Origin: Terrabacter aerolatus
Lineage (GTDB): Bacteria; Actinomycetota; Actinomycetes; Actinomycetales; Dermatophilaceae
Assembly: GCF_007991735.1 (NCBI RefSeq)
Contig: NZ_BJYX01000018.1
Coordinates: 1-64,000, forward strand
Reading direction: 5' to 3'
Length of the DNA: 64,000 nt
Numbering within the stretch: position 1 is the stretch's first letter; each line of letters starts with the position of its first letter. Under the pieces are notes generated by a model. The model saw nothing but the letters and a program-made list of their open reading frames with translations, did not search any database and was not told the origin of the DNA. Below are positions 980 through 21,481 of this stretch, piece by piece. A program made the position numbers and the translations under genes.

Positions 980-1807
980 TCAGCTCGGCCTGTCGCAGAC
1001 GAAGATCGCCGTGCCGGGGATGATGCGGCCGCGCAACGGCGACCAGCCGCCCCACGGCTGGTCGTGGCCCTCGGGCCACTCGGGCTCGACGAGGTCGACG
1101 AGCACGAGGCCGGCCGCGGCGATCTCCCGCACCCGGTCACCCAGGGTGCGGTGGTGCTCGACGTAGGTGGCGCGACCCGCCTCGTCCTGCTCGACGTACG
1201 GCGTGCGGTCGAAGTAGGAGTGGCGAGCCGTCAGCCCCCCGGCACCCGGGTCGTCGGGGAACGCCCACCGCACGGGGTGGGTCGTCGAGAAGACGAAGCG
1301 TCCCCCGGGCCGCAGCACCCGGGCCGCCTCCCGCATGACGACGTCGGAGTCCCCGACGAAGGGCACGACACCGTATGCCGTGAAGACCGTGTCGAACGAC
1401 GCGTCGGCGAAGGGCAGGGCCCGGCCGTCGCACTGGACGAAGGGGACGCGGGCCGGAGCCAGCGCCGGGTCGAGGGTGTCGTTGACGGCCACCCCGGTCG
1501 CCACCATGCCGGCGGAGATGTCGGTGGCCACCACCGTCGCGCCGTGCGCGGCGAGCCAGCGCGAGCACTGCCCCGAGCCGGCCCCGATCTCGAGGACCTG
1601 CCGCCCGGCCGGGTCGCCGAGCAGGCGGGCGTCCTCCTCGCGGAGGCGCTCGGGGCCCCAGACGAAGTCGGTGTCGCCGAGGAACGAGCCGTGCTCGACG
1701 TAGTACGAGCCGGCCTCGTGGTCCCACCACGTGCGGTTGGCCGTGGCCGTCTCGGCCGGGGGAGCGGGACGGCGGGTGGCCTCGGTGGGCGTGCTCACGG
1801 CATACAT
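980..1807 (-). CDS. Class I SAM-dependent methyltransferase
   Basis: About 275 residues. The SAM-binding motif I is clear (VLEIGAGSGQCSRWLAAHG), followed by an acidic strand end (VVATDIS), a motif II/III region (CDGRALPFADASFDTVFTAYG) and the post-motif VLRPGGRF typical of Methyltransf_11/25 enzymes. The C-terminal part has WPEGHDQPWGGWSPLRG. The substrate cannot be told from sequence. The start is uncertain: ATG at 1807 gives MYAVSTP, while a GTG at 1800-1798 gives VSTPTE and sits about 11 bases after an AAAAGAGA purine stretch. The frame stays open further upstream but that part overlaps the rpsA promoter and is unlikely to be coding. Convergent with the preceding gene, divergent from rpsA. 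Confidence 0.85.
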   Translation of the reverse strand: MYAVSTPTEATRRPAPPAETATANRTWWDHEAGSYYVEHGSFLGDTDFVWGPERLREEDARLLGDPAGRQVLEIGAGSGQCSRWLAAHGATVVATDISAGMVATGVAVNDTLDPALAPARVPFVQCDGRALPFADASFDTVFTAYGVVPFVGDSDVVMREAARVLRPGGRFVFSTTHPVRWAFPDDPGAGGLTARHSYFDRTPYVEQDEAGRATYVEHHRTLGDRVREIAAAGLVLVDLVEPEWPEGHDQPWGGWSPLRGRIIPGTAIFVCDRPS

Positions 1808-1815
1808 CGTCTCTT

Positions 1816-1845
1816 TTGACCGGGTGCTGACAGCGCGGATAGGAT
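1816..1845 (+). promoter_or_regulatory. Housekeeping promoter of rpsA
   Basis: TTGACC (1816-1821), an 18-base spacer and TAGGAT (1840-1845) form a good sigma-70/HrdB-type promoter. It predicts transcription start near 1852 and a leader of roughly 120 bases before the rpsA ATG, long enough for autogenous control, which is known for S1 in other bacteria but not shown here. Confidence 0.7.
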
Positions 1846-1970
1846 TGCCGAGCGCATTCGTGTGCGCACGCTCAATGTTGAACCTGTCCACAAGGCATCG
1901 GGGCACAGGCCGTGACGGCCGCCGCCGCGAGGGCCCCAATCTAACCGTCCACAATCGGAGTTCCTACTAC

Positions 1971-3482
1971 ATGACTGCCAACACGGTCGAGAAGACCGCG
2001 CCTGAGATCGCCATCAACGACATCGGCTCTCAGGAAGACATCCTTGCGGCGATCGACGCCACCATCAAGGACTTCAACGACGGCGACATCGTCGAGGGTC
2101 GCATCGTCAAGGTCGACCGGGACGAGGTCCTGCTCGACATCGGCTACAAGACCGAGGGCGTCATCCCCTCGCGCGAGCTGTCCATCAAGCACGACGTCGA
2201 CCCCGGCGAGATCGTCAAGGTCGGTGACGAGGTCGAGGCCCTCGTCCTCCAGAAGGAGGACAAGGAAGGCCGTCTGATCCTGTCCAAGAAGCGTGCGCAG
2301 TACGAGCGCGCCTGGGGCACGATCGAGAAGGTCAAGGAAGAGGACGGCGTCGTCACCGGCACCGTCATCGAGGTCGTCAAGGGTGGTCTCATCCTCGACA
2401 TCGGCCTTCGCGGCTTCCTGCCCGCCTCGCTCGTCGAGATGCGCCGTGTCCGCGACCTCCAGCCGTACGTCGGCAAGGAGATCGAGGCCAAGATCATCGA
2501 GCTCGACAAGAACCGCAACAACGTGGTCCTGTCGCGCCGTGCCTGGCTCGAGCAGACGCAGTCCGAGGTGCGCACGACGTTCCTCAAGGAGCTCCAGAAG
2601 GGCCAGGTCCGTTCGGGCGTCGTGTCCTCCATCGTCAACTTCGGTGCGTTCGTGGACCTCGGCGGCGTCGACGGTCTCGTCCACGTCTCCGAGCTGTCGT
2701 GGAAGCACATCGACCACCCGTCCGAGGTCGTCGAGGTCGGCACCGAGGTCACCGTCGAGGTGCTCGACGTCGACATGGACCGCGAGCGTGTCTCCTTGTC
2801 GCTGAAGGCGACGCAGGAGGACCCGTGGCAGCACTTCGCCCGGACCCACGCCATCGGCCAGGTCGTCCCCGGCAAGGTCACCAAGCTCGTCCCGTTCGGT
2901 GCGTTCGTTCGCGTCGAGGACGGCATCGAGGGCCTCGTGCACATCTCCGAGCTGGCCGAGCGCCACGTGGAGCTGCCGGAGCAGGTCGTCAACGTCGGCG
3001 ACGAGATCTTCGTCAAGGTCATCGACATCGACCTCGAGCGTCGTCGCATCTCGCTGTCGCTCAAGCAGGCCAACGACCAGGCCGTCTCGGCGTCGGAGTT
3101 CGACCCGACGCTCTACGGCATGGCCGCCGAGTACGACGAGCAGGGCAACTACAAGTACCCCGAGGGCTTCGACTCGGAGACGAACGAGTGGCTCGAGGGC
3201 TTCGACGCCCAGCGCGAGAAGTGGGAGCGTCAGTACGCCGACGCCCACGCTCGCTGGGAGGCCCACAAGGCCCAGGTCGACGCCGCGACGAAGGCCGACG
3301 CCGAGGCTGCGGCCAACGCCGGCTCTGCGACGTCCTACTCGTCCGCGACCGGTGACGTCGCCGAGGCCGGCGACGCCGACCGTGGCGAGCGCGCCCCGCG
3401 CAACGCCCCGGCTCCCGTCGAGGGCACGCTGGCCTCGGACGAGGCGCTCGCCGCGCTTCGCGAGAAGCTGACGGGCAACTGA
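1971..3482 (+). CDS. rpsA: 30S ribosomal protein S1
   Basis: 503 residues. S1 binds mRNA on the small ribosomal subunit and helps initiation on structured messages. Four S1 (OB-fold) repeats can be seen at about 35-108, 124-192, 208-280 and 295-365, the last two with the classic NFGAFVDLGG and PFGAFVRVEDGIEGLVHISEL signatures. The tail (about 380-503) is acidic and low in complexity with FDSETNEWLEGFD, as in actinobacterial RpsA, which are shorter than the six-repeat E. coli protein. ATG 1971 follows CGGAG at 10 bases. The frame is open upstream to 1731, but that part covers the promoter and leader and is not coding. Confidence 0.97.
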   Translation: MTANTVEKTAPEIAINDIGSQEDILAAIDATIKDFNDGDIVEGRIVKVDRDEVLLDIGYKTEGVIPSRELSIKHDVDPGEIVKVGDEVEALVLQKEDKEGRLILSKKRAQYERAWGTIEKVKEEDGVVTGTVIEVVKGGLILDIGLRGFLPASLVEMRRVRDLQPYVGKEIEAKIIELDKNRNNVVLSRRAWLEQTQSEVRTTFLKELQKGQVRSGVVSSIVNFGAFVDLGGVDGLVHVSELSWKHIDHPSEVVEVGTEVTVEVLDVDMDRERVSLSLKATQEDPWQHFARTHAIGQVVPGKVTKLVPFGAFVRVEDGIEGLVHISELAERHVELPEQVVNVGDEIFVKVIDIDLERRRISLSLKQANDQAVSASEFDPTLYGMAAEYDEQGNYKYPEGFDSETNEWLEGFDAQREKWERQYADAHARWEAHKAQVDAATKADAEAAANAGSATSYSSATGDVAEAGDADRGERAPRNAPAPVEGTLASDEALAALREKLTGN

Positions 3483-16455: not shown

Positions 16456-16785
16456 ATGGAAGCGCGAATCACCTTCGAGGGATTCGAATCCCCCAAGAAC
16501 CGACGTCACGGCCCGGACGGGGACCTCGTCGACGTGAAGGGGTGGCTCCGTGCCCCGGTGGACTGGACCGGCGGTCCGCACCTCGAGCACATCTGGCGCG
16601 AGAAGCACGGCCGGTCCCGGCTCGGTGTCGGGCTCGCCGTCGCGAACAACCCGCGTCGGCACATCCTCATGACCAACGTCCCGCCGGATCTCGACTTCCT
16701 CCGGTCCGAGCTCGAGTCGCTCATCGCCGAGCTCGACCCCGACACCGATCCCGACCCGCGGCCCGACCTCGAGGGCGCCCAGTAG
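16456..16785 (+). CDS. Conserved-looking hypothetical protein
   Basis: 109 residues beginning MEARITFEGFESPKNRRHG. Mostly polar with a central hydrophobic stretch (RLGVGLAVANNPRRHILMTN) and an acidic C-terminus (DPDTDPDPRPDLEGAQ). No motif I can assign. ATG 16456 lies 7 bases after a TACCGT -10 box (16443-16448), indicating a leaderless transcript. Codon use matches the neighbours. It stands alone between the divergent NlpC operon and the two-component flavoenzyme locus. Confidence 0.65.
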   Translation: MEARITFEGFESPKNRRHGPDGDLVDVKGWLRAPVDWTGGPHLEHIWREKHGRSRLGVGLAVANNPRRHILMTNVPPDLDFLRSELESLIAELDPDTDPDPRPDLEGAQ

Positions 16786-16947: not shown

Positions 16948-18606
16948 GTGGCGAGGCCCGCGATCATCACCGTGGACGACGACGCGCCCGTCTCGGCGGC
17001 GATCGCGCGGGACCTGCGCGCCCGCTACGGGGCCGAGCACCGCATCCTGCGTGCACCCTCCGGCGCCGAGGCCCTCGACCTCGTCGTGCGCCTCCTGCTG
17101 CGCGGACAGCCGCTGGCGCTCGTGGCCTCCGACCAGCGCATGCCGTCCATGTCCGGCATCGAGCTGCTGGCACGCGTGCGGGCCGACGTGCCGGACGCGA
17201 AGCTGCTCCTGCTCACGGCGTACGCCGACACGGACGTCGCGATCTCGGCCATCAACGACATCGGCCTGGACCACTACCTCCTCAAGCCCTGGGACCCGCC
17301 CGAGGACCGGCTCTACCCGGTCGTCGACGACCTGCTCTCCGACTGGCACAACGCCCACCCGGAGCAGGGCCACGACGTCCGGGTCGTCGGGCACCGGTGG
17401 TCCGAGGGCAGCCAGGTCGTCAAGACCTTCCTCGCCAACAACCACGTCCCCTACGTCTGGCTCGACGTCGAGCTCGACGCGGAGGGCGCTCGGCTGCGTG
17501 ACCTCGCGGGAGCCGGGCCGGAGGACCTGCCCCTCGTGCTCGTGCCGGACGGCGAGACGCTGCGCGCCCCCACTGCGTTGACGGTCGCCACGGCCCTGGG
17601 CCTGCGCACCAGGGCGGAGCGGGACCTCTACGACCTCTGCATCGTCGGCGGAGGCCCGGCCGGGCTCGCGGCCGCCGTCTACGCGGCGTCCGAGGGACTG
17701 AGCACCGTCGTCGTCGAGCACGACGCGCCCGGCGGCCAGTCGGGTCAGAGCGCGGCCATCGAGAACTACCTCGGGTTCCCGCGCGGCCTGTCCGGCGCCG
17801 ACCTCGCGCAGCGCGCCATAGCCCAGGCCCGGCGGTTCGGTGCCGAGATGGTGCTCGCCCGCGACGTCGTCGCCCTCGAGGCACGCGGCCCCGCCAGGGC
17901 GGTCCGCCTCGACGGCGCGGACGACATCGAGGCACGGAGCGTCGTGCTCGCCACGGGTGTCTCGTACCGGCGGCTCGACGCTCCCGGCATCGACGCGCTC
18001 GTCGGCCGAGGCGTGCAGTACGGCTCCAACGCCGGCCAGGCCGCTGCCTGCGCCGGTGACGAGGTCTACGTCGTCGGGGCGGCCAACTCCGCAGGGCAGG
18101 CCGTGCTCAACCTGGCCCGGTACGCCGAGCGCGTCACCCTGCTCGTCCGCGGCGACTCGCTCGAGGCGAGCATGTCGCAGTACCTCGTGGAGCGGATCCG
18201 GGCCCACGAGGGGATCCGCGTGCTGTGTCGTACCGAGGTGGCCGGCGCGGACGGTGACGGCCACCTCGAGCGCCTGACGCTCACGGACCGGCACACGGGC
18301 GGGACGGCGGACGTGCCGGCCGGTTGGCTCTTCGTCTACATCGGCGCGACGCCCCGGACCGACTGGTTGGGCGCCGACGTCGTGCGCGACGACCACGGCT
18401 TCGTCGTGACGGGGCACGACCTCGTGACCGGTCCGCTTGCCCGTGGGTGGTCGCTCGCGCGGCCGCCGTTCGCGCTCGAGACGAGCCTGCCGGGGGTCTT
18501 CGCGGCCGGTGACGTGCGCTCGGACTCGATGAAGCGCGTGGCCTCGGCCGTCGGCGAGGGCTCGATGTCGGTCTACTTCGTCCACCGCTACCTCGCCACG
18601 ACCTGA
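16948..18606 (+). CDS. Response regulator fused to thioredoxin-reductase-like FAD/NAD(P)H oxidoreductase
   Basis: 552 residues in three parts. Residues 1-135: receiver domain with acidic pocket D10-D12, phospho-acceptor D62 (SDQRMP), T90 and K113 (LLKPW). Residues 143-215: a segment with the pattern of a thioredoxin/glutaredoxin fold (VRVVGHRWS to LPLVLVPDGETL) but no Cys pair. Residues 225-550: two dinucleotide-binding folds, FAD site GGGPAG (234-239) and NAD(P) site VVGAANSAG, closing with PGVFAAGDVR. The TrxR redox CxxC is missing: its place reads VQYGSNAGQAAACAG. Databases name such proteins fused response regulator/thioredoxin-disulfide reductase, but without the disulfide it cannot work as TrxR does. 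GTG 16948 is 6 bases after TACGCT. Followed after 19 bases by its likely kinase. Confidence 0.88.
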   Translation: MARPAIITVDDDAPVSAAIARDLRARYGAEHRILRAPSGAEALDLVVRLLLRGQPLALVASDQRMPSMSGIELLARVRADVPDAKLLLLTAYADTDVAISAINDIGLDHYLLKPWDPPEDRLYPVVDDLLSDWHNAHPEQGHDVRVVGHRWSEGSQVVKTFLANNHVPYVWLDVELDAEGARLRDLAGAGPEDLPLVLVPDGETLRAPTALTVATALGLRTRAERDLYDLCIVGGGPAGLAAAVYAASEGLSTVVVEHDAPGGQSGQSAAIENYLGFPRGLSGADLAQRAIAQARRFGAEMVLARDVVALEARGPARAVRLDGADDIEARSVVLATGVSYRRLDAPGIDALVGRGVQYGSNAGQAAACAGDEVYVVGAANSAGQAVLNLARYAERVTLLVRGDSLEASMSQYLVERIRAHEGIRVLCRTEVAGADGDGHLERLTLTDRHTGGTADVPAGWLFVYIGATPRTDWLGADVVRDDHGFVVTGHDLVTGPLARGWSLARPPFALETSLPGVFAAGDVRSDSMKRVASAVGEGSMSVYFVHRYLATT

Positions 18607-18625
18607 CGGCCGGACGGGACACGCG

Positions 18626-20029
18626 ATGCTCGAGCTCCCAGACCTTCGGGGTGTGCCGCTCTTCGACGGGTTGCGCGACGACCAGCTCGCGCAGCTGCTC
18701 GGCGCGGGGTCCGAGGTCCCCATCGTGCCCGGCGAGGTGATGTGGCTCGAGGGCGACCGCGCCGACCACTGGTGGGTCGTCGTCCACGGGACGCTCGACC
18801 TCTCACGCCACGTGGGTCGCGAGGACGTCGTCGTCGGCCGGATGGACGTGCCCGGACGCTGGGCCGGCAGGTTCCGCGCCTGGGACGAGCACGGCGTCTA
18901 CCTCGCGACGGCCCGCGGCGTCACGCCCGGCCGGCTGCTGTGCGTGCCCGCCGAGCGTCTCCACCAGCTGGCCGACGAGTGGTTCCCCTTCGCCGCGCAC
19001 CTCGTCGCCGGGCTCTACGGCACCGCCAGGTCGATCGAGGCGACGGCCCCCCAGCGCAGCGGGCTCGTGACGCTGGGGACCCTGGCCGCCGGACTCGCGC
19101 ACGAGATCAACAACCCTGCCGCGGCGGCGGTGCGCTCGGCCGCCGAGCTCGAACGGGCCTGCGACGGCCTGCTCGACGCGCTGCGCCAGATGGCCTCGAG
19201 CGGGCTGACGGCGACCCAGTTCGGCCAGCTCGACGCACTGCGGCGCGAGCTCGTGGCGCCGACCACGCTGCCCGACCCCCTCGAGACGGCCGATCGCGAG
19301 GAGGAGCTGGGGGAGTGGCTGGACCGATCCGGGGTGCCGCACCCGTGGGAGCTCGCCGCCTCGCTCGTGTCGGCCGGCGCGGACCTCTCCTGGGTCTCCC
19401 GCGCCGCCGGGGCCAGCCCCGAGGACGGGCTCGCGGCCTCGCTCGGCTGGGTCGCGCGCACCATCGACGTGGCCTCGCTGCTCGCCGAGGTGCGTGAGTC
19501 CACCCGCCGTGTCTCCGAGCTCGTCGCCGGCGTCAAGTCCTACTCCCAGATGGACCGGGCCTCCCACCAGCCGGTCGACGTGCGCGAGGGCCTCGAGAGC
19601 ACCCTGCTCGTCATGGGCCCGCGCCTGCGCCCGGGGGTGACCGTCGTGCGCGACTGGGGTAGCGACGTCCCCCTGGTCGACGGCATGCCGGGCGAGCTCA
19701 ACCAGGTCTGGACCAACCTCGTCGACAACGCGGTCGAGGCCATGGAGGGGGTCGGGACCCTGACGGTGACGACCCGTCGTGACGGGGACACCGTGCTCGT
19801 CGAGGTCGCCGACACGGGCAACGGCATGAGCCCCGAGGTGCAGCAACGCGCGTTCGAGGCGTTCTACACGACGAAGGACGTCGGCCGCGGCACGGGCCTC
19901 GGCCTCGACATCGCGCACCGCATCGTCGTCGAGCGGCACGGCGGCTCGCTCGAGATCCAGTCACAGCCGGGCGACACGCGCCTGCGGGTTCGCCTGCCTG
20001 TCAAGGCTCCCCGCTCGACCTCGGCTTGA
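18626..20029 (+). CDS. Histidine kinase with N-terminal cyclic-nucleotide-binding-type domain
   Basis: 467 residues. Residues 1-125 look like a Crp/cNMP-binding beta-roll (LFDGLRDDQLAQLLGAG, then GEVMWLEGDRADHWWVVVHGTLDL); the canonical phosphate-binding Arg motif is not obvious, so the ligand may differ. H-box LAAGLAHEINNP with phospho-acceptor H159. ATPase domain about 320-460: N-box N364 (WTNLVDNAVEAM), G1 DTGNGM, F-box FEAFYTTK and G2 GTGLGL. No membrane segment, so it senses something inside the cell. It starts 19 bases after the receiver-flavoenzyme gene, its probable phosphotransfer partner. A bidirectional hairpin follows at 20045-20085. Confidence 0.9.
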   Translation: MLELPDLRGVPLFDGLRDDQLAQLLGAGSEVPIVPGEVMWLEGDRADHWWVVVHGTLDLSRHVGREDVVVGRMDVPGRWAGRFRAWDEHGVYLATARGVTPGRLLCVPAERLHQLADEWFPFAAHLVAGLYGTARSIEATAPQRSGLVTLGTLAAGLAHEINNPAAAAVRSAAELERACDGLLDALRQMASSGLTATQFGQLDALRRELVAPTTLPDPLETADREEELGEWLDRSGVPHPWELAASLVSAGADLSWVSRAAGASPEDGLAASLGWVARTIDVASLLAEVRESTRRVSELVAGVKSYSQMDRASHQPVDVREGLESTLLVMGPRLRPGVTVVRDWGSDVPLVDGMPGELNQVWTNLVDNAVEAMEGVGTLTVTTRRDGDTVLVEVADTGNGMSPEVQQRAFEAFYTTKDVGRGTGLGLDIAHRIVVERHGGSLEIQSQPGDTRLRVRLPVKAPRSTSA

Positions 20030-20102: not shown

Positions 20103-20777
20103 TCACCAGCCTCGGGCGCGCCACTCGTCGAGGTGAGGACGCTCGGCGCCCAGAGTCGAGTCGTCGCCGTGCCCCGGGTATAACCACGTGTCGTCGTCGT
20201 AGACGTCGAAGACGCGGGTCGTGACGTCCTCGATGAGCGCGTCGAAGCTCTGGCCGGGGTTCTTCGTGTTGCCGACGCCGCCGGGGAACAGGCTGTCGCC
20301 GGTGAAGAGGTGGGTGTGCCCGTCGGGGTCCGCGTAGGCGAGCGCGACCGAGCCCGGCGTGTGGCCGCGCAGGTGGACGACGTCGAGGGTGATGTCGCCG
20401 AAGGTGACGGTGTCGCCGTGCTCGACCCGCACGTCGACGGGCACGGGCAGGGCGTCGGCGTCGTCGGTGCCGGCGACGGTGCGAGCGCCGGTCGCGGCGA
20501 CGACCGCGGCGAGCGCGCCGACGTGGTCGTGGTGCTGGTGGGTGGTCACGACGGTGTCGAGTCCCTGCCCTCCGTCGCCGACGAGCTCGAGGATCCGGTC
20601 GGGCTCGGCGGCGGCGTCGACGAGCAGCTGGGCACCGGTGGCCCGGCTCGTCAGCAGGTAGGCGTTGTTGCCGAAGCCGCCGACCTCGAGCTTGCGGATG
20701 GTGAGGGCGGGCAGCTCCCTGACGCCGGCCGGACCGTCCGGCGACACGTGGCCGGTGTAGGAGTCGTGCTGCGACAT
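20103..20777 (-). CDS. MBL-fold metallo-hydrolase (glyoxalase II-like)
   Basis: 224 residues. The metallo-beta-lactamase signature THQHHDHVGAL supplies HxHxDH; further ligands are in LRGHTPGSVAL and FTGDSLFPGGVGNT, with the closing PGHGDDSTLG. The GDSLFPGGVG loop and NNAYLLT start resemble hydroxyacylglutathione-hydrolase-like enzymes, which in actinobacteria act on mycothiol thioesters or related compounds. Its gene starts 2 bases after the stop of a mycothiol-dependent-isomerase-like gene, which supports a thiol-linked detoxification role; the substrate is unproven. Confidence 0.87.
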   Translation of the reverse strand: MSQHDSYTGHVSPDGPAGVRELPALTIRKLEVGGFGNNAYLLTSRATGAQLLVDAAAEPDRILELVGDGGQGLDTVVTTHQHHDHVGALAAVVAATGARTVAGTDDADALPVPVDVRVEHGDTVTFGDITLDVVHLRGHTPGSVALAYADPDGHTHLFTGDSLFPGGVGNTKNPGQSFDALIEDVTTRVFDVYDDDTWLYPGHGDDSTLGAERPHLDEWRARGW

Positions 20778-20779
20778 GG

Positions 20780-21481
20780 TCAGCCTCCGTAGGGAAGGGT
20801 CGGGACGGGGCCGTTGAAACGGACGCCGTCGGAGCGGCCGCGGGCCAGCCAGAGCAGCACGTCCGCCGCCGAACCCGTGGCGCGGGTCGCGCCCTCACCG
20901 ACGACGTGCTCGTCGCCCTCCGTCGTGACGACGTGGAGCGACGGAGGCGCGTCGGCGTGCGCGAGGCGGTTCGCGGCGTCGCGCAGGAACAGGGCCACGA
21001 CCTCCCGGGGTGCGGAGGCGAACGTGTAGCCGGCGTCGAGGTCGACGTGGTGGAAGACGACCTCGCGCAGGCGCATGAACGTCACCATCCCCACGGCGAT
21101 GGGGAAGCCCCCCGGGGTCCGCTCGACGCGCACCTCGGCGTGCTCGGGACGCAGGGCCTCGAGGCGTCCTGCGAGTCGGGCCGCGCTGTCGCGGATGTCG
21201 GTGGCGTGGTCGTGGGCGGCGCGGCGGGCCCCGCGGTCGATGTCGGCATCGCGCGAGTCGGCGTCGTCGTACATCGTGTCGGGGCGGCCGGTCAGGGCCA
21301 CGTCGCACACCCGGACGAGGGCGTCGGCGTTGCGGGCGACGTGGGCCAGCACGTGCCCGCGGGACCACCCCTCGCACAGCGACGGTGCGAGCACGGCGTC
21401 GTTGCGGAACGACGCCGCGGTGGCGACGAGACGCTCGGTCTCGGCCGCCACGAGGGCCGGTGTCACGTCAGCGTGTCTCAT
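20780..21481 (-). CDS. Maleylpyruvate isomerase family (mycothiol-dependent, DinB-like) protein
   Basis: 233 residues. N-terminal four-helix DinB/MDMPI domain with [20 protein letters not shown] and a second metal-ligand region [17 protein letters not shown]-terminal small domain ends in [21 protein letters not shown]. This matches the TIGR03083-type maleylpyruvate isomerase family, whose characterised member uses mycothiol as cofactor. The frequent paralogues in actinobacteria suggest varied mycothiol S-transfer roles. The start overlaps the end of the GH15 gene by 14 bases and its stop is 2 bases from the MBL gene, so the three form one operon. Confidence 0.88.

Follow-up and report, generated by a model that had tools for sequence, protein, structure and literature searches.

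What does a two-component response regulator do when its output module resembles thioredoxin reductase (TrxR) but has no redox cysteine pair? The question is raised by a locus of Terrabacter aerolatus contig NZ_BJYX01000018.1, of which the first 64,000 nucleotides, here called the window, were analysed. To our knowledge, two-component outputs that work by direct control of an enzyme, and not through transcription, are few. A first-pass annotation had regarded the locus as its best candidate for an undescribed system. REC-TrxR response regulators are named in a census of two-component systems (PMC5847659), so that the fusion type is already in print, while the accessible part of that census gives them no function and mentions neither Cys status, glutaredoxin-like domain nor partners. 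A search of the open-licence literature found no paper combining the features of the system, and zf-UBP did not appear among the matches listed from related open-licence literature. What is new is the setting, namely the choice between receiver and Crp fusions, the pairing of receiver and kinase, the co-occurrence with zf-UBP, and the quinone and antiporter neighbours.

Organization of the locus

All features of the two genes lie on the + strand. The response regulator (16948..18606, GTG start, 552 aa) consists of a receiver, a Cys-less glutaredoxin-like domain and a CxxC-less TrxR-like FAD/NAD(P) module. The receiver (residues 6–118; 16963..17301; PF00072 Response_reg, 51.8 bits against a Pfam cut-off of 30.2) possesses the Asp phospho-acceptor, D62 (17131–17133), as well as the Thr/Ser and Lys expected of such domains, T90 (17215–17217) and K113 (17284–17286); all three are invariant in 17 of 17 rows of the relatives' alignment. 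The glutaredoxin/mycoredoxin-fold domain occupies about residues 144–216 (17377..17595), and the FAD/NAD(P)H module residues 228–550 (17629..18597; PF07992 Pyr_redox_2, 121.7 bits over residues 228–538). The only Cys residues are C231, C368 and C427. Since 19 of 20 aligned relatives match the protein from residue 26 or earlier to residue 549 or later, with 41–91% identity, the three-part architecture is not due to chance; the remaining one (L031) matches residues 158–551 and carries a different front domain.

The kinase gene (18626..20029) begins 19 bases after that of the response regulator and specifies a soluble histidine kinase of 467 aa. Its Crp-like sensor domain of the cNMP-binding type (residues 34–117; 18725..18976) belongs to that fold family on the basis of both Pfam (PF00027, 32.2 bits, cut-off 27.5) and its best PDB relative [2pqq; E 2.6e-7]. 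H159 (19100..19102), in an HEINNP box, is the predicted autophosphorylation site by analogy with other histidine kinases, and the HATPase_c catalytic domain covers residues 357–460 (19694..20005; PF02518, 87.9 bits). Averaged in 19-residue stretches, hydropathy peaks at 1.50 in the response regulator and at 1.34 in the kinase, in line with soluble proteins and with the earlier statement that neither has membrane segments. The first-pass reading frames, the 19-base gap and the positions of D62, T90, K113, H159, GSNA and the three Cys were all reproduced.

The locus comprises these two genes only. A 109-aa ORF upstream (16456–16785) was not accepted as a third partner, as it has no match in Pfam or NCBIfam, nor were the downstream MBL-fold and mycothiol-isomerase-family genes, which are on the opposite strand.

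The glutaredoxin-like domain

The middle segment, first described as Cys-free and thioredoxin-fold-like, is predicted by AlphaFold (pLDDT 86.5) to adopt a glutaredoxin-type fold. Its best Foldseek matches are mycoredoxin, a Grx fusion, BC3987, Grx and NrdH, the best E being only 1.4e-3; a profile built from the middle domains of 15 relatives matched mycoredoxin 2lqo with an E of 2.4e-7. The mycoredoxin WCGYC pairs with WSARS in the profile consensus, and at the active-site CxxC position the window protein reads S152-E-G-S155 (17401–17412). The domain is thus a glutaredoxin/mycoredoxin relative in fold and sequence that has no active-site Cys.

The flavin module and the loss of CxxC

Pfam and structure comparison both identify the FAD/NAD(P) Rossmann core of thioredoxin-disulfide reductases, and the two-domain FAD/NAD(P)H core is common to the window protein and TrxB (TIGR01292). 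They differ in that G359-S-N-A362 (18022..18033) aligns with the redox CxxC of TrxR, in that the family signature GAANSAGQA (residues 377–385; 18076..18102) replaces the GGGDSA motif, and in the additional receiver and Grx-like domains. The module scores 202.6 bits with TIGR01292 (cut-off 343.45) and 151.6 bits with the AhpF model TIGR03140 (curated cut-off 502.9). AhpF is also the likeness seen by Foldseek, in which 4o5q is the top match of the window protein. In AhpF a thioredoxin-fold part lies ahead of the TrxR-like core and electrons pass via CxxC pairs in both parts, whereas the window protein is missing both pairs. Both redox disulfide sites, that of the Grx-like and that of the TrxR-like domain, are lost.

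Among 216 modules tallied (some partial, and two duplicated, as L313 and L353 repeat the genomes of L025 and L031), all with the N[SA]A[GA]Q signature, none contains CxxC anywhere in the module. As the loss is family-wide, homologues with an intact CxxC, which the first-pass annotation had named as one observation that would overturn its reading, did not arise, and a sequencing error or local change is ruled out. Nor is this the housekeeping TrxR: a canonical enzyme with CATC (395 bits) is encoded on a different contig of the same genome. The NADPH motif of TrxR is HRRxxxR; where that enzyme has HRRDALR the window protein has VRGDSLE, a comparison which rests on the own-genome TrxR, a motif tally for the NADPH site that looks partly out of register having been set aside. 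Two of the three Arg are missing, and the electron donor is consequently uncertain.

Receivers, kinases and the Crp-type branch

Across relatives the front domain of the module is either a receiver or a Crp-like domain. The Crp-type proteins share the Grx-like domain and CxxC-less module with the window protein and fall on one side of a branch in one tree (calculated after removal of 18 named rows and of every sequence no longer than 300 residues), but their ligand domain is directly fused and no kinase was found beside those examined. In the plasmid records listed, the database name "thioredoxin-disulfide reductase", quoted earlier for such fusions in general, is given to these Crp-types; the annotated receiver types are called FAD-dependent oxidoreductase.

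We counted as adjacent any kinase with a model score of at least 200 within about 4.8–5 kb on either side of the module. In Actinomycetota, where 120 of 129 module matches outside the own genome were fetched and 118 of these classed, a kinase adjoins 49/56 intact receivers, 0/34 degenerate receivers and 0/21 Crp-types; the other classed loci have an undetermined front domain (3) or a cut receiver (4, one with a kinase). For four of the seven intact receivers lacking a neighbouring kinase the sequence is cut off by the end of the contig (L152, L170, L199, L209). The strong Fisher value for this association is weakened by the tree, on which receiver and kinase state changed about three times; with 3 independent pairs the independent-pairs test is not significant. 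At the Bacteroidota loci (33 of 33 listed places fetched) 28/28 receivers are intact and 27 of the 28 adjoin a kinase, one of these on the opposite strand. From Pseudomonadota 27 of 31 loci were fetched (all but G667, G755, G707 and G751); the phylum names of these second and third draws are taken from L025 and L031. Direct phospho-control of a flavoenzyme that is not a transcriptional output would fit this context.

zf-UBP proteins and antiporters

The survey of gene neighbourhoods for a third partner, suggested at first pass, revealed zf-UBP proteins, cation/proton antiporters and enzymes of the MhqO/MhqD type beside relatives, and these narrow the substrate range to be considered for the flavoenzyme. 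In three phyla genomes with the module tend also to encode zf-UBP, often as its neighbour. The numbers of genomes with both, module only, zf-UBP only and neither are 68/20/27/281 in Actinomycetota (21/3/10/40 when counted by family, a total of 74 that may be low), 21/11/2/164 in Bacteroidota and 9/20/0/270 in Pseudomonadota. Thus 20/88, 11/32 and 20/29 of the module-bearing genomes, respectively, have no zf-UBP. For Actinomycetota a module was a listed match with an E no higher than 1.8e-100; another 13 genomes, whose best matches were short or fragmentary (E 1e-80 to 1e-97) and one of which (G218) has zf-UBP, were left uncounted, and matches weaker than this range were treated as plain TrxR. 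Two sub-cut-off Bacteroidota zf-UBP matches (G422, G530) were likewise uncounted, and the zf-UBP-only loci were examined in 16 of the 27 genomes. Actinomycetota have 27 module–zf-UBP pairs ≤1.6 kb apart, where about 0.2 would be expected at random.

Na_H_Exchanger/Kef-like genes adjoin relatives such as L029, L332, L318 and L324, and in L029 and L332 zf-UBP is fused to the Kef-like antiporter. At the window locus no Kef-type antiporter lies next to the module; the single zf-UBP of this genome is located elsewhere, fused to a Na+/H+ antiporter. A UBP gene is listed in only 1/8 annotated plasmid regions, for which the gene table is incomplete. The partner zf-UBP proteins are of the same family as the bacterial protein 2ida (E 1.4e-28), a "Hypothetical protein" in the PDB; their eukaryotic kin read ubiquitin tails. 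Large neighbour clusters 1 and 3, from high-GC loci, look like antisense noise and were rejected.

Quinone-detoxification genes

One Bacteroidota locus (L324) reads dioxygenase, hydrolase, antiporter, zf-UBP, kinase and response regulator on one strand with gaps of ≤12 bases. An actinomycetotal locus (L373) has dioxygenase, hydrolase, response regulator and three kinases, followed on the same strand by other genes, among which are zf-UBP, an antiporter and one resembling quinone reductase. The dioxygenases beside relatives match MhqO 3oaj with E values of 9.7e-90 and 1.4e-40. MhqD is the best model for the L373 hydrolase (176 bits, below the cut-off of 325), and the Bacteroidota hydrolase did not match it at E 1e-3. 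The set is found at 4/120 Actinomycetota loci, all of one genus, while at the Bacteroidota loci the hydrolase occurs in 10/33 and the dioxygenase in 2/33, both near the end of the stretch; the dioxygenase ORF of L376 is merely 100 aa. Neither gene was found at 27 Pseudomonadota loci, the dioxygenase and esterase are absent from the window gene cluster, and the genome had no MhqD-like protein at E ≤1e-20.

The recurrence of an MhqO/MhqE-type dioxygenase with an MhqD-type esterase near some relatives recalls the MhqR/QsrR quinone-stress regulons, which have MarR-type repressors and azo- and nitroreductases acting as quinone reductases (PMC6798810, available part); the window locus has no MarR-type repressor, azo- or nitroreductase. 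The second likeness is to KefC–KefF, where a flavin oxidoreductase gene also stands beside a cation/proton antiporter in electrophile defence, KefF being a quinone reductase and ancillary subunit of KefC (PMC10224563). This resemblance is functional only: KefF is an FMN protein resembling human QR1/QR2, for which the portion of that paper at hand reports no receiver, kinase or zf-UBP, and the window protein has a TrxR-type FAD core.

Proposed function

The quinone enzymes, antiporters and zf-UBP proteins beside some relatives suggest an unstudied defence against toxic quinones. Our best reading, held tentatively and at a little under an even chance, is of a phospho-switched NAD(P)H flavoenzyme that directly reduces quinones or similar electrophiles and is tied by zf-UBP to an antiporter, a functional parallel to KefF–KefC. 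An internal signal sensed by the kinase through its Crp-like domain would lead to phosphorylation of D62, and the receiver may act through the redox-dead glutaredoxin-like domain, as a coupling element, to alter the state of the flavoenzyme. Having no disulfide relay, the reduced flavin, if bound as predicted, would have to hand its electrons straight to a small acceptor; quinones or similar electrophiles are the most likely ones. In some relatives the defence set would comprise an MhqO-type dioxygenase cleaving hydroquinone rings, a carboxylesterase (putatively MhqD type in one lineage), zf-UBP and the antiporter, and zf-UBP probably docks enzyme and antiporter. A phospho-controlled flavin oxidoreductase that has lost both redox disulfides would stand apart among two-component outputs. 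For proteins that databases list as thioredoxin-disulfide reductase or FAD-dependent oxidoreductase the partner map offers a testable function, and it suggests what bacterial zf-UBP proteins may do. We consider doubtful the broader proposal of a widespread, undescribed electrophile-defence machine, in which a disulfide-less flavoenzyme, switched by phosphorelay or Crp domain, reduces quinones and through zf-UBP controls how active a Na+ or K+/proton antiporter is; were it true, detoxification and cytoplasmic acidification would answer one signal.

Alternatively, the flavin module could be mainly a phosphorylation- and NAD(P)H-dependent conformational switch that binds zf-UBP and gates the antiporter, turnover being incidental. 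The absence of both Cys pairs, the zf-UBP associations, which are broader than those of the quinone set, and the activation of KefC without KefF activity (PMC10224563, part available) are consistent with this, but many flavin-module positions are invariant among 17 relatives and the dioxygenase and esterase lie nearby on the same strand in two phyla, and we think it rather unlikely.

The quinone-reductase reading also competes with electron transfer to another acceptor (oxygen, peroxide, ferredoxin or flavodoxin), as in a TrxR-type ferredoxin-NADP reductase (FNR) or NADH oxidase. TrxR-type FNRs are among the CxxC-less relatives of TrxR, and FNR entries appear among the PDB matches of the module, but the best of them is far weaker (E 3.6e-17, versus 9e-43 for TrxR); we consider this reading improbable.

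Disulfide reduction by a remote Cys, or with the help of a separate thiol protein that docks on the glutaredoxin-like domain, is very improbable: although the C368 position is Cys in 90/156 aligned modules and the Crp-types bear the public name of disulfide reductases, that position is another residue in 66/156, the 216 modules have no CxxC, the TIGR01292 score is too low, and a canonical TrxR is encoded elsewhere in the genome. That the locus is decaying or accidental and has no function is scarcely credible; the genome does hold a second copy of the module with a degenerate receiver, from the group in which no kinase was found, but Actinomycetota and Bacteroidota retain the phospho-site, the signature and the pairing with a kinase, and plasmid records from Deinococcota, Cyanobacteriota and Betaproteobacteria again show response regulator and kinase as neighbours.

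The locus and its two proteins

The response regulator gene (16948-18606, forward strand) specifies a protein with a receiver domain (residues 6-118), a middle segment with no Pfam match and a Pyr_redox_2 domain (residues 228-538; Pfam assignments), and is followed by a kinase gene (18626-20029, forward strand) encoding a Crp-like domain and HATPase_c. All residues named in the first-pass annotation (D62, T90, K113, H159 and cysteines 231, 368 and 427) were checked and are right. The closest relatives of the locus, with 88–91% identity, are found in Terrabacter and Terracoccus. Both genes are on contig C18. Receiver domains are frequent in this 4.42 Mb genome (41 matches), against which the output of this regulator is unusual. 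Two genes are convergent with that of the kinase: one for a metallo-beta-lactamase-fold hydrolase (20103-20777, reverse strand) and one of the mycothiol-dependent isomerase family (20780-21481, reverse strand). The same genome carries a second copy of the module (contig C8, locus L083, positions 1471-3168), whose receiver is degenerate, visual comparison placing Glu close to D62 and Ala close to K113, and which groups with the kinase-less degenerate receivers.

Missing disulfide and the middle domain

Loss of the CxxC had been proposed from the sequence alone, and alignment to solved thioredoxin reductases (TrxR) bears this out, with GSNA at that position and no CxxC at the TrxR site in any of 20 aligned relatives. 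Homologues with an intact motif, which would point to a sequencing or local change, were sought among 216 modules, taken as sets of 156 and 60 (two are repeats and some are partial), and none had a CxxC at the TrxR site, the glutaredoxin site or anywhere else in the module; the NAD(P) site reads N[SA]A[GA]Q in every one. The canonical TrxR of the same genome retains CATC, GGGDSA and HRRDALR, the matching places in the response regulator being GSNA, GAANSA and VRGDSLE.

The middle segment is predicted by AlphaFold to be beta-alpha-beta-alpha-beta-beta-alpha (pLDDT 83 in the full model, 86.5 alone), and its top Foldseek matches are mycoredoxin, a glutaredoxin fusion protein, BC3987, glutaredoxin and NrdH, at modest E values of 1.4e-3 upward. 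A profile of the middle domains of 15 relatives matched mycoredoxin-1 (E 2.4e-7), the WCGYC of the latter being aligned with WSARS. This fold and profile match identify the linker as mycoredoxin-like, Ser replacing Cys. Pro 195 is invariant among the relatives aligned and lies where such folds have their cis-proline.

Front domains and kinase pairing

The front domain was classed in 149 of 154 proteins (from 34 first-scan loci and 120 drawn Actinomycetota loci), giving 124 receiver-like, 22 Crp-like and three undetermined; two kinds of control would act on one module. In the Actinomycetota draw a Crp-domain kinase adjoins 49 of 56 receivers with an intact phospho-site, four of the seven exceptions stopping at a contig edge, and no adjacent kinase was found for degenerate receivers (0/34) or Crp-types (0/21). 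In Bacteroidota every one of the 28 receivers is intact, and the kinase accompanies 27, once on the other strand; the other loci of this phylum comprise two Crp-type and three stand-alone modules. Crp-types make up 26 of 27 Pseudomonadota loci, and the remaining one (L353), with an ambiguous start, equals the Crp-type protein of L031. No kinase was found beside the Crp-type or stand-alone modules of these two phyla. These counts are not independent, since on a tree of 198 rows the receiver state and the kinase state change only three times each and the Crp-types form one side of a single branch.

Six of eight annotated plasmid regions carry the response regulator type, so that receiver types occur in Pseudomonadota too. 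A gene annotated "ATP-binding protein", putatively for the same kinase, directly follows the regulator on plasmids of Caballeronia, Deinococcus aetherius, Gloeothece, Streptomyces and Nostoc sp. C052; on that of Nostoc edaphicum the two are separated by a transposase gene and one more. The remaining two regions hold Crp-type proteins and lack such a neighbour.

The zf-UBP partner and antiporters

A survey of gene neighbourhoods for a third partner, as suggested in the first-pass annotation, turned up a zf-UBP protein. In Rhodococcus, Nocardia and others a small protein, by appearance a zf-UBP zinc finger, is encoded directly 3' of the kinase, and the Bacteroidota protein scores 56.9 bits with PF02148 (cut-off 22.7). 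Module and zf-UBP co-occur genome by genome: both, module only, zf-UBP only and neither number 68, 20, 27 and 281 in 396 Actinomycetota genomes, 21, 11, 2 and 164 in 198 Bacteroidota, 9, 20, 0 and 270 in 299 Pseudomonadota, and 21, 3, 10 and 40 by Actinomycetota family, all being counts by genome or family without a species tree. Actinomycetota have 27 pairs of module and zf-UBP no more than 1.6 kb apart, where chance placement in 4 Mb genomes would give about 0.2. Of the fetched stretches, 17 of 33 from Bacteroidota and 8 of 27 from Pseudomonadota contain a zf-UBP gene. Among the eight plasmid regions the Streptomyces one has the trio of response regulator, ATP-binding protein and UBP-type zinc finger; no UBP gene is listed in the other seven.

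At 5 of 16 Actinomycetota loci with zf-UBP and no module, a Na+/H+ antiporter is fused to it (three) or adjoins it (two), and the sole zf-UBP of the Terrabacter genome forms the tail of a Na_H_Exchanger protein (contig C15). Loci L029 and L332 each encode, between regulator and kinase, a Kef-like antiporter with a zf-UBP tail, the top NCBIfam model for that of L332 being KefC (292.9 bits, under the cut-off of 752). The ancillary subunit of KefC, KefF, is described as a quinone reductase (PMC10224563).

Quinone-type neighbours

Six genes of Bacteroidota locus L324 share a strand, spaced 12 bases apart or less, in the order dioxygenase (truncated by the end of the stretch), hydrolase, antiporter, zf-UBP, kinase and response regulator. 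The hydrolase recurs at 10 of the 33 Bacteroidota loci, an antiporter of this type at 18 and the dioxygenase at two, at stretch edges. In one actinomycetotal genus (L373, L374, L376) hydrolase and dioxygenase genes, the latter an ORF of only 100 aa in L376, lie 5' of the regulator and three kinases 3'. Further along the same strand L373 has, among others, genes for a DAC-domain protein, a transporter that by inspection is of MFS type, zf-UBP, a protein nearest the quinone reductases of PIG3 type (91.8 bits against a cut-off of 296.8) and a Na+/H+ antiporter. A similar kit therefore occurs in two phyla with differing antiporters, that of L318 having a TrkA_N domain and that of L373 none.

The dioxygenase of L373 resembles MhqO (3oaj, E 9.7e-90) and 2,6-dichlorohydroquinone dioxygenase (4huz, E 1.5e-53), and that of L324 a glyoxalase-family protein (1zsw, E 1.7e-45) and MhqO (E 1.4e-40). 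MhqD is the top NCBIfam model for the L373 hydrolase (176 bits, under the cut-off of 325); the Bacteroidota hydrolase matches carboxylesterases in general. A search for MhqD in 20 genomes, the Terrabacter one and 19 of one family, gave a match in 16, single-copy in 15 and adjoining the module in four of one genus; the Terrabacter genome had none. MhqO/MhqD-type enzymes of Bacillus and Staphylococcus are described within quinone-stress regulons that include quinone reductases (PMC6798810).

Proposed function

The REC-TrxR combination is already in print as a domain architecture (PMC5847659); the CxxC-less state, the Crp-type twin and the zf-UBP, antiporter and quinone partners are apparently undescribed, no account of them having been found in open-licence literature. 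We tentatively favour, at a little under even chances for the whole and with greater confidence in its anatomy, a phospho-controlled flavoenzyme that would reduce quinones or like electrophiles directly, within a defence set tied by zf-UBP to the antiporter. Lacking a disulfide, the reduced flavin would serve only acceptors able to reach it and would hand electrons to them directly, so that the Ser-substituted domain would act in coupling or docking and not in thiol exchange. The main rival explanation makes the flavoprotein a switch for the antiporter, its turnover being of little weight.

Other neighbours

Stand-alone modules, which keep the glutaredoxin-like domain and the CxxC-less core but have neither receiver nor Crp domain, occur in Bacteroidota (L341, L342, L345); L345 adjoins zf-UBP and has an Old-Yellow-Enzyme-like gene nearby, and L342 an HxlR-like regulator (both named by inspection). 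A chloroperoxidase-like alpha/beta hydrolase (by inspection) is near Crp-type or stand-alone modules at seven loci (L345, L349, L354, L357, L358, L369, L371). "Low temperature requirement protein A" is near the putative regulator-kinase pair in three plasmid records from two phyla (L394, L395 and L399; Deinococcus and Nostoc), the Deinococcus record also having a DHA2 efflux pump. The three tandem Crp-domain kinases after the one regulator of L373, L374 and L376 possibly feed several signals into one enzyme. As the DAC-domain (diadenylate-cyclase-type) gene of L373 (7582-8259) is in the kinase-regulator run, the signal there may involve c-di-AMP.
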